Part shown: positions 23,890-59,898 of the stretch, one piece after another
Numbering within the stretch: the first letter of the stretch is position 1
Layout: every line of letters begins with the position of its first letter
Assembly: GCF_012272855.1 (NCBI RefSeq)
Contig: NZ_JAAXCQ010000006.1
Span: 62,001 to 126,000 of the forward strand
DNA length: 64,000 nt
Direction: 5' to 3'
Source of the DNA: Arenibacter sp. 6A1
GTDB taxonomy: Bacteria > Bacteroidota > Bacteroidia > Flavobacteriales > Flavobacteriaceae
Position numbers and translations under genes: made by a program
Notes under the pieces: model-generated
Databases searched by the model: none
What the model was told of the DNA's origin: nothing
What the model saw: the letters and a program-made list of their open reading frames with translations, nothing else

Positions 23890-24327
23890 ATGGGTTTAAA
23901 CAAAATATTATCCGTAGCAGGAAAACCGGGACTTTATAAGTTATTATCGCAAACACGTTCAGGATTCGTAGCCGAATCATTGTTGGATGGGAAAAAAATC
24001 ACCGTTAGTTTTAAAAACAACGTTAGTGTTTTATCCGAAATTGCCATTTATACTTTGGAGGAAGAAGTTCCTTTAAGAGAGGTTTTTGAGAAAATCAAGG
24101 AAAAAGAAGAGGGTGGTAAAACATCTATAGGTCATAAAGAAGATAAAATTAAATTGGAAGAATATCTTTTTGAGATACTTCCAAATTATGATGAAGATAG
24201 AGTATATGCCAGCGATATCAAAAAGATTATCCAATGGTATAATCTTTTACATGATCACGGTATTACTGATTTCTCAACAGAGGAAGCAGCAGAAGATACT
24301 GTTGCTGAAGAGAAGGAAGCTGAATAA
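23890..24327 (+). CDS. DUF5606 domain protein
   Basis: 145 residues. The N-terminal 75 residues (LNKILSVAGKPGLYKLLSQT, then VAESLLDGKKITVS and NNVSVLSEIAIYT) are the DUF5606 domain, nearly confined to Bacteroidota. The C-terminal part is helical and ends in a glutamate-rich tail (EEAAEDTVAEEKEAE). Function unknown. It follows def by 58 bp and is closed by a terminator, so it is probably co-transcribed with ruvX-def. Confidence 0.88.
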   Translation: MGLNKILSVAGKPGLYKLLSQTRSGFVAESLLDGKKITVSFKNNVSVLSEIAIYTLEEEVPLREVFEKIKEKEEGGKTSIGHKEDKIKLEEYLFEILPNYDEDRVYASDIKKIIQWYNLLHDHGITDFSTEEAAEDTVAEEKEAE

Positions 24328-24430: not shown

Positions 24431-24515
24431 TTGCGTTAGGGATCGCAGCGGCATCCCCGCAGCAAGGTAAGGGATAAAGCGAAGAGCCCGCCCGACGTAG
24501 GAGGGAACGCCCAAA
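24431..24515 (+). repeat. 85-bp dispersed repeat, copy A
   Basis: GC-rich 85-bp unit beginning TTGCGTTAGGGATCGCAGCG and ending GAGGGAACGCCCAAA. Two more ungapped copies lie at 41014-41098 (minus) and 59660-59744 (plus). Self-complementary pairs are GCGTT (3-7) with AACGC (76-80), ATCCC (23-27) with GGGAT (41-45), and CCC..CC (57-63) with GG.GGG (70-75), giving a multibranched fold. It lies between two convergent terminators with no coding potential. It may be a structured small RNA or a short mobile repeat. Confidence 0.75.
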
Positions 24516-24671: not shown

Positions 24672-26255
24672 TTATTTTTTCCAATCGATACGTTTGGAAG
24701 GATAGTATTTTACGTTCATTTTATCTAAATAAGGAGTTTGCTTGGCCAGTCTTTCTTTGTAGCTGTCCCAATTTCTATTTTCCTCAGTACTCCAGCCTAA
24801 TTCGGCATAACCGATCATTCTAGGGAAGGCCAAATATTCTAACTCTTCCATATTGCTAATAGTTTCTGACCAAAGTGGTGCTTCAAGGCCAAGGATGTTT
24901 TCTTTGTTAATACCTTTTACATATTTTTCTGGTGTCCAAATGTAGGCAGTATCCACAGGGATAAGTCCAGCCCAACCTAAGCCATGCTTGGAGTCTTCGT
25001 CATATTTCATATCCAAATAAGCTTTTTTACCAGGAGATAAAATAATCTTTAATCCTTTTTCAACACCTGCAAGGGCATTTTTTTCATTGCTCCAAAACTG
25101 TGCAATTGTTGACGGATTAACATCGGCATGTACGATTTCGTCCCAACCGATCATTTGTTTGCCATACTTTGATACAATCTTATCTACGCGGGCAATAAAA
25201 TAGTTGAAATCTTTTTTCTTGGTAACATGACTTTCGTCTCCACCGATATGGATATACGGTCCAGGAGTCATTTCGGAAATTTCACGGATTACATCATCAA
25301 TAAAATCGTATACGCTTTCCTTGCGGGTATCAAAGGTGCTAAAGCCAACATCTATACCGGTATAAGGCTCTACTTTTTTTCCGTTACCATTAAGGAACGG
25401 GTACGCTAAACTTGCTGCATTGGTATGCCCAGGCATATCTATTTCTGGAATAATCGTAATGTGGTGTTTGGCAGCATAGGCTACAAGATCTTTATATTCC
25501 TCTTGGGTATAAAATCCGCCTTCGCCACCACCAACTTCTGAACGGCCACCAACTTCGGTAAGTTTGGGCCATGATTTTATTTCAATTCTCCAGCCTTGGT
25601 CGTCTGAAAGGTGTAGGTGAAGAATATTAACTTTATAATAAGCTAAGATGTCTATGTACTTTTTAACGTCAGACACGCTAAAGAAATGCCTAGATACATC
25701 TAACATTGAACCTCTGAACCCAAAATTTGGCGTATCGGAAACCTGTCCAGTTGGGATCAGCCACATTTTGGTCTTGGCCAAAGTGTCGTTACTAGTTTGT
25801 GGGATTATCTGTCTAATAGTCTGTACGCCCCAAAATGCGCCTTGGGCAGACTTAGCATTGATGATAATAGAATCTTGGGTAATGTTAAGCTGGTAGGCTT
25901 CCGGGGTCGTAAATGCTACGTCATCGGCTTGGTTAATGTATATGACACGGCCAACATCTGCCTTTTCAGTATTGTTTACCGGAAGGTTTAAGGTCGTTTG
26001 CCATTTTATTTTTTCAGATAAAAATTCGCCTACTTCAGGAAATCCTGTTGCCGTGGTAGAGGTGAAAATATGGGTGTTTTCATCCAGTCCAAAGGCGCTG
26101 TTTGTCGCGATTACCTTTGAAGGCATAGGAATTAATGCTTCCGTGGCAAGATCAGTTTTAGGAAAATTAATAGGTTTTTCTTGTTCCTGACATGATGTCA
26201 AGGCGAAAATAGAGACTAGTAAGCCTAGTCCGCTCAAAAAGGTTGTTTTTCTCAT
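24672..26255 (-). CDS. beta-N-acetylhexosaminidase lipoprotein (GH20)
   Basis: 527 residues. The lipoprotein signal peptide ends in LTSC with lipidated C22. An alpha/beta GH20 N-domain (about 40-170) precedes the TIM barrel, which starts GFRGSMLDVSRHFF and holds HLHLSDDQGWRIEI, IPEIDMPGHTNA and the catalytic pair D340-E341 in HIGGDESH. It releases terminal GlcNAc or GalNAc from chitin oligomers, peptidoglycan or glycans by substrate-assisted catalysis. It is 26 bp after a SGNH hydrolase in the same operon, so the two may act on one acylated amino-sugar glycan. Confidence 0.94.
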   Translation of the reverse strand: MRKTTFLSGLGLLVSIFALTSCQEQEKPINFPKTDLATEALIPMPSKVIATNSAFGLDENTHIFTSTTATGFPEVGEFLSEKIKWQTTLNLPVNNTEKADVGRVIYINQADDVAFTTPEAYQLNITQDSIIINAKSAQGAFWGVQTIRQIIPQTSNDTLAKTKMWLIPTGQVSDTPNFGFRGSMLDVSRHFFSVSDVKKYIDILAYYKVNILHLHLSDDQGWRIEIKSWPKLTEVGGRSEVGGGEGGFYTQEEYKDLVAYAAKHHITIIPEIDMPGHTNAASLAYPFLNGNGKKVEPYTGIDVGFSTFDTRKESVYDFIDDVIREISEMTPGPYIHIGGDESHVTKKKDFNYFIARVDKIVSKYGKQMIGWDEIVHADVNPSTIAQFWSNEKNALAGVEKGLKIILSPGKKAYLDMKYDEDSKHGLGWAGLIPVDTAYIWTPEKYVKGINKENILGLEAPLWSETISNMEELEYLAFPRMIGYAELGWSTEENRNWDSYKERLAKQTPYLDKMNVKYYPSKRIDWKK

Positions 26256-35976: not shown

Positions 35977-36007
35977 ATTGATTTGTTTAGTTGGTTTTAT
36001 GGTATTC

Positions 36008-40687: not shown

Positions 40688-41446
40688 AGTAAATATGCTG
40701 GTTTAATAGTTTTAAGGGGCTGCTTTACGAAAAGGCTCAAAAATCACGCCTTACCTTTCTAAAGGTAGCCCAACAATGTCGTTTTTATGCTTTTCATGGA
40801 GAATATTGTTAGTTCTCCTACTATTTAGTTCTAATTAGCTGTAAATACTTACGATTTTTTTACAATAAAAGTTTTAAAATATTGCTTTTTTAAAGGTGTT
40901 GAGCGTAAGTATGTAGAAAAAATAGAGGAGGAGCAATCTCTTTTAGCCGTTGATAAAATGAATTTTATCGCTTGTAGCTCTAGGATATTTCTGAGCCATA
41001 GTCATCATTTTAATTTGGGCGTTCCCTCCTTCGTCGGTCGGGCCCTTGGCTGTATCCCTTGCGATGCTGCGGGGATGCCGCCGCGGTCCCTAACGCAAAA
41101 AAACAGCTAGCAGGTTTTACTGGCTTGGTATAGCAGTAATTCTAATAAACGCTTAGGATCTAAGGTTGCTGGCACAATAATAATAGTCAGGTGTATTAAG
41201 GAAAGCTATCGAATTGCTAGGTAGGCCGTCAAATTATAGAAGGCTCCCTTCTGAGCGTTCTTTCTAAATGCTCGATGAAAGACCCAATAATTCGATAAGT
41301 TAATATCTGACTGAAAACCATAATCCGATTTATTAAACACTTAATCTATGGAATTGTTAGATACCGAAATATATGGGGTTTTTAGCGATTGGAAGGGTAT
41401 ACTTACATGTAACAGGTGTTATTTTTACAATAGAAACCTACTAGTT
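40688..41446. other. intergenic region with repeat copy B
   Basis: About 760 bp between divergent genes. It holds copy B of the 85-bp repeat (41014-41098). Apart from that I see no credible ORF or strong hairpin. Confidence 0.5.
41014..41098 (-). repeat. 85-bp dispersed repeat, copy B
   Basis: Reverse-complement copy of the unit at 24431-24515, also exactly 85 bp with no indels. It is the most diverged copy: substitutions include T13C, A17G, G51C, A55G and C61A relative to copy A. The GCGTT/AACGC and ATCCC/GGGAT pairings are unchanged. Confidence 0.75.
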
Positions 41447-59475: not shown

Positions 59476-59898
59476 GATTAGTTCCTTATTATTAATACAA
59501 TTGGTCAATCAGTCAGCTTATTTCTAAGTTAATGATTTATAGGATGATATGCTATTGAATTAACGTTTTTAATTGAAGGGGGAGGCTTATGTGTTTGGTA
59601 GGTTTAACTTGTTAAACAGCATTAAAGGTGTGGCGTTTTTTGATGCATATTTAATTTTTTCGCGTTAGGGATCGCAGCGGCATCCCCGCAGCAGCGCAAG
59701 GGATATAGCGAAGAGCCCGCCCGACGCAGGAGGGAACGCCCTAAGAAAAAGATAAAGGCCACACGAAATTGGACTGCCTACCTAGGAAACAACCTTCCAA
59801 GGGCTTTTAGACTATTGGTTGAAAAATAGCGAAAGGTCCTAAAAAGGGAGGTGTTTTTTTAAATAGTAGGCGAAAATTAGAGAATATGGCTGATAGAT
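59476..59898. other. intergenic region with repeat copy C
   Basis: About 420 bp on one strand's promoter side. Contains the 85-bp repeat copy C at 59660-59744 and otherwise no credible ORF. Confidence 0.5.
59660..59744 (+). repeat. 85-bp dispersed repeat, copy C
   Basis: Ungapped third copy, differing from copy A (24431-24515) at only seven positions (T2C, then three in the hairpin loop, one each after GGGATA and GACG, and one in the tail). The terminal GCGTT/AACGC and the inner ATCCC/GGGAT pairs are conserved. Confidence 0.75.

Follow-up and report, generated by a model that had tools for sequence, protein, structure and literature searches.

The 85-bp element found three times in the window (the whole stretch of 64,000 nucleotides from Arenibacter sp. 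6A1 analysed here) belongs to a divergent, Arenibacter-expanded subfamily of Flavo-1-type element, designated S1. Flavo-1 is a known kind of repeat; new are the counts of about 200 copies in each of two sister species, the constraint at single sites and the exclusion of a second copy from the same strand nearby. The two genomes are that of the window (G000, 4.67 Mb in 60 contigs) and that of A. nanhaiticus (G009, Arenibacter nanhaiticus CGMCC 1.8863), whose long colinear blocks show 84-92% identity.

Re-reading of the window places the three copies at the coordinates and on the strands given by an initial annotation. Between copies A and C there are seven substitutions and no indels, and the pairing of GCGTT with AACGC and of ATCCC with GGGAT which it described is possible in the window copies. 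These also lie in gene-free gaps as stated there, with no ORF of at least 100 amino acids covering any of them. The copies and their stems (P1, P2 and P3) are as follows:

24431..24515, + strand: copy A of S1, folded core 24433-24511, 30.8 bits against Flavo-1, between convergent ORFs at 23890-24327 (+) and 24672-26255 (-)
24433..24437 and 24506-24510, + strand: P1 of copy A, 5′ arm GCGTT and 3′ arm AACGC (columns 1-5/74-78 of alignment A2)
24439..24489, + strand: P2 of copy A, a long interrupted hairpin with a hypervariable triloop at 24464-24466 (columns 7-57), the portion present in the Rfam Flavo-1 consensus
24492..24504, + strand: P3 of copy A, a hairpin with tandem G.A/A.G and a GNA triloop (columns 60-72)
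41014..41098, - strand: copy B of S1, core 41018-41096
Arms of copy B, - strand: P1 41092-41096/41019-41023, P2 41040-41090, P3 41025-41037
59660..59744, + strand: copy C of S1, core 59662-59740
Arms of copy C, + strand: P1 59662-59666/59735-59739, P2 59668-59718, P3 59721-59733

The pattern GGCATCCCN{8,30}GGGATA has 174 matches in G000 (93 on the + strand, 81 on the - strand) and none when reversed, so the family is not a product of chance, with at least one of 100 listed places (C11:293620) not being the element. A 21-nt pattern from the 5′ end matches 210 times in G000 and 195 times in A. nanhaiticus. The other 16 Arenibacter genomes have 0-9 copies each by this pattern, and the role of S1 is thus not essential to the genus. 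Within the Flavobacteriaceae, sampled as one genome per genus, the pattern is present in 82 of 199 genomes, the highest counts being 210 (G000), 50 (G084) and 20 (G203) with the rest at 14 or fewer, while the reversed control gives six matches over all 199. Across the Bacteroidota 13 of 198 genomes have it, those outside the Flavobacteriaceae being G356 (17 copies) and three single-copy genomes. No match to the element was found in plasmids and phages. Two stretches of the viral collection IMG/VR (contigs L255 and L256) match the family's 24-nt 5′ pattern.

The complete element is a three-way junction, formed by P1, P2 and P3 and supported by covariation. In the alignment of 114 distinct S1 copies (A2), the pairs tested were P1 1-5/74-78, P2 7-25/39-57 and P3 60-64/68-72, with the model of P2 also holding an apical stem (30-31/35-36). 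Pairing is possible in 96.6% of cells against 94.2% in shuffled alignments, and seven pairs are changed on both sides against 2.2; in neither case did any of 500 shuffles reach the observed value, and versions of the model slid along the alignment pair far less. At pair 12-52 each of the four Watson-Crick types is found. Covariation is also seen in columns scored as unpaired: 15-49 has G-C in 64 copies and A.G in 43, and 10-54 has A.G in 111 and G.A in a single copy. Copy C is distinguished from its A. nanhaiticus orthologue by coordinated changes, which affect 11-53 and 15-49. In P3 the tandem G.A/A.G is found in 112 and 110 of the 114 copies, and the P3 triloop is bounded by G and A in 103. 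The apical triloop varies in sequence, and most copies have A-N-C, A-N-G or G-N-A there. Read on the + strand, deviating pairs are G.U in 10 instances and A.C in 4, and it is therefore the + strand that folds. The selection for fold which the initial annotation had proposed is thereby borne out.

A covariance model of S1 (R1), of the kind advised there, gave full-length alignments for 19 of 20 copies belonging to six further genera and missed L173; these 20 copies had been picked by their 5′ pattern, and only their remaining parts are independent evidence. In the joint alignment A3, which was fitted to the model, 46 cells are changed on both sides against 10.1 in shuffles (0 of 500), with P1 varying on one side only. 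Single copies fold with energies no better than their shuffles (z of 0.06, -0.33 and -0.24 for the + strand and -0.15, -1.45 and 0.36 for the other). RNAalifold, given the first 31 copies, detected no pair changed on both sides and gave other pairings for P1 and P3.

The suggestion that the repeat may correspond to Flavo-1 (RF01705) proved right as to kinship, with S1 itself scoring below the Rfam cut-off. At Rfam cut-offs the window has no match. With relaxed thresholds copy A gives a full-length alignment (1-76) of 30.8 bits, the cut-off being 42; the S1 copies in L007 and L008 reach 29.7 and 34.0 bits, also below it, and for those in L060 and L064 no Flavo-1 match is listed at an E-value of 0.1. 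A further subfamily of G000, S2, begins with GCGTTAG and ends with GGGAACGCCC as S1 does, and has an apical hairpin of a U-stem and an A-stem. Five S2 copies were tested with Infernal, of which three pass (51.1, 45.0 and 42.5 bits) and two fail (40.4 and 38.7). S1 is taken as a divergent Flavo-1 subfamily because S2, with the same ends and in the same genome, passes the cut-off in three of five cases. L058, L060 and L109 contain chimeras, whose front is that of S1 and whose P3 resembles that of S2. S1 and Flavo-1 have in common their occurrence in the Bacteroidota, their dispersal and the P2 layout GGG.UC...GC...AUCC/GGAU...GC...GA.CCC, which S1 follows both in the alignment of copy A and in the P2 covariation of A2 and A3. 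They differ in the apical part, CCCCGCAGCNNNGCAAGGG in S1 and a U-stem in Flavo-1, and in P1 and P3, which are absent from the Rfam consensus and present in S1. Flavo-1 appears as a row in a table of a 2010 survey for the Bacteroidetes (PMC2864571), and the accessible portions of that survey and of a 2021 study (PMC9723704) give it no function.

Comparison of orthologous sites shows that the compared S1 copies are kept one by one by purifying selection and are not debris. The 275-kb contig C57 of G000 is colinear with C80 of A. nanhaiticus, and all 14 S1 copies found on C57 have a C80 counterpart that matches in position and orientation; C80 has one more copy, at a place corresponding to 2 kb of C57 outside the comparison. 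No difference by presence or absence, as recent mobility would leave, was seen among these copies. Gain or loss is detectable in this comparison, since another repeat, R4, does differ by presence (C80:9420 and C80:168669, only in C80). Over the 14 orthologous pairs, 47 of 1133 element sites have changed without gaps, against 198 of 757 and 197 of 817 in the 60-nt flanks. In a set of 27 pairs, some of them well matched on one flank only, 99 of 2183 element sites have changed (4.5%, four gaps) against 541 of 1526 and 428 of 1595 flank sites (27-35%). Selection for length, also claimed from the window, is thus supported at single sites, together with selection for sequence. In the 26 pairs of equal length the triloop has changed at 29 of 78 sites, while columns 16-27 and 38-44 are unchanged in all. 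Frequent conversion of the whole element is disfavoured, since the triloop has diverged about as fast as the flanks in an otherwise nearly frozen element.

The mobile repeat offered as the other guess is matched by the spread of the family, though the fixed and constrained state of the compared copies is unlike transposon debris, and dead debris was rejected on the site sharing and on the constraint of the element relative to its flanks. Only one of the 111 located G000 copies is truncated. MITEs are non-autonomous DNA transposons with terminal inverted repeats and a target-site duplication. The ends of S1 have only the 5-bp P1, and no target duplication was resolved around S1 copies. The site of copy A is element-free in four other Arenibacter, with flanks too diverged to define an empty site.

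With genes assigned by codon score, 40 S1 copies of G000 have usable flanks (eight copies have unusable ones, and A and C were dropped as duplicates). Convergent gaps hold 21 of these and divergent gaps two, and copies in codirectional gaps are sense in 10 cases and antisense in seven; background gaps of 150-1500 bp comprise 20 convergent, 81 codirectional and 37 divergent. None of the counted copies lies inside an ORF. A cis-regulator was rejected, as there is no fixed orientation to genes. It is very improbable that the copies form a family of small structured RNAs, one RNA per copy. Such RNAs would agree with the covariation through G.U intermediates and with Rfam's typing of Flavo-1 as 'Gene; sRNA', but inspection of 96 copies showed no promoter-like conservation upstream, for which the reading was set aside, and it leaves the spacing described below unexplained. 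Flavo-1 matches in F. psychrophilum, moreover, lie sense or antisense to transcribed regions and many lie in none (PMC9723704).

The copies are arranged by strand. Positions are listed for 135 of the 210 G000 copies and 107 of the 195 in A. nanhaiticus, and the counts of adjacency and distance rest on these. Of 114 pairs of adjacent copies in G000, 89 have their members on opposite strands (P 7e-10 at p 0.5), as do 74 of 89 such pairs in A. nanhaiticus; most sites are shared, so that the two genomes are not independent. Among the matches listed, pairs closer than 10 kb are opposite in 34 of 36 and 31 of 31 cases respectively. By distance (0-5, 5-10, 10-20 and 20-30 kb) the opposite listed pairs are 19/21, 15/15, 30/51 and 28/50 in G000 and 15/15, 16/16, 30/46 and 17/36 in A. 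nanhaiticus, the bias being absent beyond 20 kb. Opposite-strand pairs closer than 10 kb number 33 against 30.5 expected at random, and the placement of copies on one strand is independent of that on the other. The 99 same-strand gaps between listed copies have a minimum of 11.2 kb, whereas random placement gives 23 gaps below 10 kb (14 in the lowest of 400 simulations); their coefficient of variation is 0.57, compared with 0.92 at random and 0.70 for a 10-kb hard core. This simulation covered 16 contigs. It omitted the C8 duplicate and the truncated copy on C23, and included one approximate copy (C57:41000) placed from A. nanhaiticus. The two same-strand exceptions, which are included in the counts of adjacent pairs, distance bins and S1-S2 pairs, are a 560-bp segment of C8 duplicated directly 3.77 kb away at 96% identity with one copy in each (L183, G000 C8:60001-80000), and, on C23, a pair of which one copy is truncated. 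Genomes other than those of the two sisters do have neighbours less than 10 kb apart on one strand (nine same-strand pairs against four opposite, counted by eye among the matches listed).

A general avoidance of direct repeats was rejected, as other direct repeats persist: among repeats of at least 85% identity within 10 kb, the elements give one direct and 17 inverted pairs and the others 19 direct and none inverted. R4 is a weak control (about 70% identity by eye); most of its copies on a contig point the same way, and same-strand ones lie 0.6-4.5 kb from each other. S1-S2 pairs are opposite in 11 of 11 cases within 10 kb in each genome, and over both genomes in 20 of 20 cases at up to 2 kb, 18 of them head to head. 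Head-to-head pairs 0.25-1 kb apart are seen in L007, L008, L060, L064, L107 and L126. The spacer sequence TGACTGCAGCCAAGGC...GTGCGGTCCTC, common to at least three of the pairs, suggests a composite S1-S2 unit.

We tentatively prefer, at somewhat less than even confidence, a reading in which each S1 copy would be an oriented chromosomal site. Its folded single strand (ssDNA in replication or repair, or RNA) would be recognised by a host or clade-specific factor acting along that strand over roughly 10 kb, and a second same-strand copy in range, useless or harmful, would not be kept. This is consistent with the covariation and its G.U excess, the copy numbers of 210 and 195 against 0-9, the constraint relative to flanks, and an exclusion that other direct repeats within 10 kb do not share. 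Less easily accommodated are the low counts in relatives, the same-strand neighbours outside the sisters, the folding energies of single copies, and a likeness between neighbours: opposite-strand neighbours within 10 kb are more alike than random pairs (4.1 against 5.6 core differences; permutation 1/2000), which points to recombination between them.

The main rival is that recombination accounts for the spacing by itself, a possible explanation but a rather unlikely one. Copies closer than about 10 kb would recombine, single-strand annealing at a break being one way; direct pairs would delete needed DNA and be lost, and inverted pairs would survive partly homogenised. The spacing would be a by-product and the conserved fold would have a separate role. 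Besides the likeness just given, there are identical or near-identical inverted neighbours (C12:50859/53540 and C34:264595/267302), and at C80:13113/17687 of A. nanhaiticus both copies have A29C and AAC, which the G000 counterparts lack. Against it, the 19 other direct repeats persist within 10 kb although they are longer and equally similar; these have the look of local duplications that could perhaps be deleted without harm. The S1-S2 pairs are too diverged for efficient recombination and are nevertheless all opposite, though 10 of the 11 lie no more than 2 kb apart and may represent one linked unit. Recombination also leaves the constraint unexplained.

A single-strand mobile element, in which a transposase would cut the folded strand and a same-strand pair within reach would be excised with the DNA between, is improbable. 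It would fit the strand specificity of both fold and exclusion, and for the Bacteroidetes it is reported that 'atypical secondary structures', also present at other places in the genome, flank the RAYT genes of subclass 2.6 (PMC6006769). Among 33 best-scoring Y1_Tnp loci, mostly of IS200 type, an element lies within about 1.5 kb only at L031 and L033, with a weak partial match at L150. In a separate set of 20 RAYT-type regions (an ORF with the motif used in 13; Rfam run on 17, the others, L234, L237 and L242, being excluded by size) a copy occurs only in the two from G000, at a distance of about 4.3 kb from the gene in one of them. No Y1_Tnp match was found in G203, G111 or G213, genomes with 14-20 copies, and no gain or loss was seen among the compared C57/C80 copies. 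RAYT or IS200 as mobiliser is thus unsupported by flanks or by many-copy genomes lacking a Y1_Tnp match; no mobiliser was found, Y1 transposase and RAYT genes not being systematically beside copies. In L241 (G000 C58:244500-250500) two RAYT-type genes lie 1.6 kb apart, the second apparently frameshifted, with an element of a third type downstream (25.5 bits against Flavo-1).

Extended to the whole genome, the oriented-site reading would make S1 a strand-specific address system of one Arenibacter lineage, with about 100 oriented sites per strand, each the sole intact same-strand copy within about 10 kb and read through its folded single strand. This is unlikely; if true, it may for example mark or divide the chromosome in each direction. 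Through the fold, the single-copy constraint and the spacing, an orphan motif now poses a question open to test, namely whether it acts as DNA or RNA and what acts over some 10 kb on one strand, and the contrast between the two sister species (about 200 copies each) and the other 16 (0-9) offers a natural experiment. Should the spacing come from recombination alone, the genome would record in a striking way the distance over which repeats interact.

Short non-coding intergenic repeats include BOX and RUP of pneumococcus and the enterobacterial RU. S1 is alike in these respects and differs in having no target duplication or cognate transposase found, in its conservation at orthologous sites and perhaps in its same-strand exclusion. 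IS200/IS605-type transposition recognises hairpins on one strand, which would predict a strand-specific interaction, but no such gene is tied to S1. REP/BIME repeats with their RAYT (TnpA-REP) are likewise extragenic, folded on one strand and present in many copies. REPs are palindromes of 20-40 bp (PMC3733652) and in BIMEs they alternate in orientation (PMC2817692), whereas S1 is an 85-nt three-way junction alternating over kilobases; the REP features of a 20-40 bp palindrome, a conserved foot and a flanking RAYT gene were not found with S1. Nothing recognised as like the S1 arrangement came from a literature search, the scope of which lay mostly outside subscription journals.

Other repeats were seen near or within the elements. 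R4 (92-116 bp, CATATGCAGATATTTATTG...GTCATGCTCATTTCA) occurs in A. nanhaiticus at C80:168669-168782 and C80:9420-9511 and is absent from G000 at the counterparts of both sites, the place in the window being about 35980-35998. Its matches are on the + strand in eight of eight cases on C46 of G000 and on the - strand in seven of nine on C57, and its orientation may follow the direction of replication. Short GC-rich palindromes (e.g., CCTGCCTGCGGAAGGCAGG) lie inside the element near its ends in L076 (2452-2551), L172 and L174. The G084 copies in L163, L164, L166 and L168 have long apical inserts with P1, P2 and P3 kept, and several of these inserts hold what appears to be another repeat (ATTGCTACGTCGC...TCCTCGCAATGACA).
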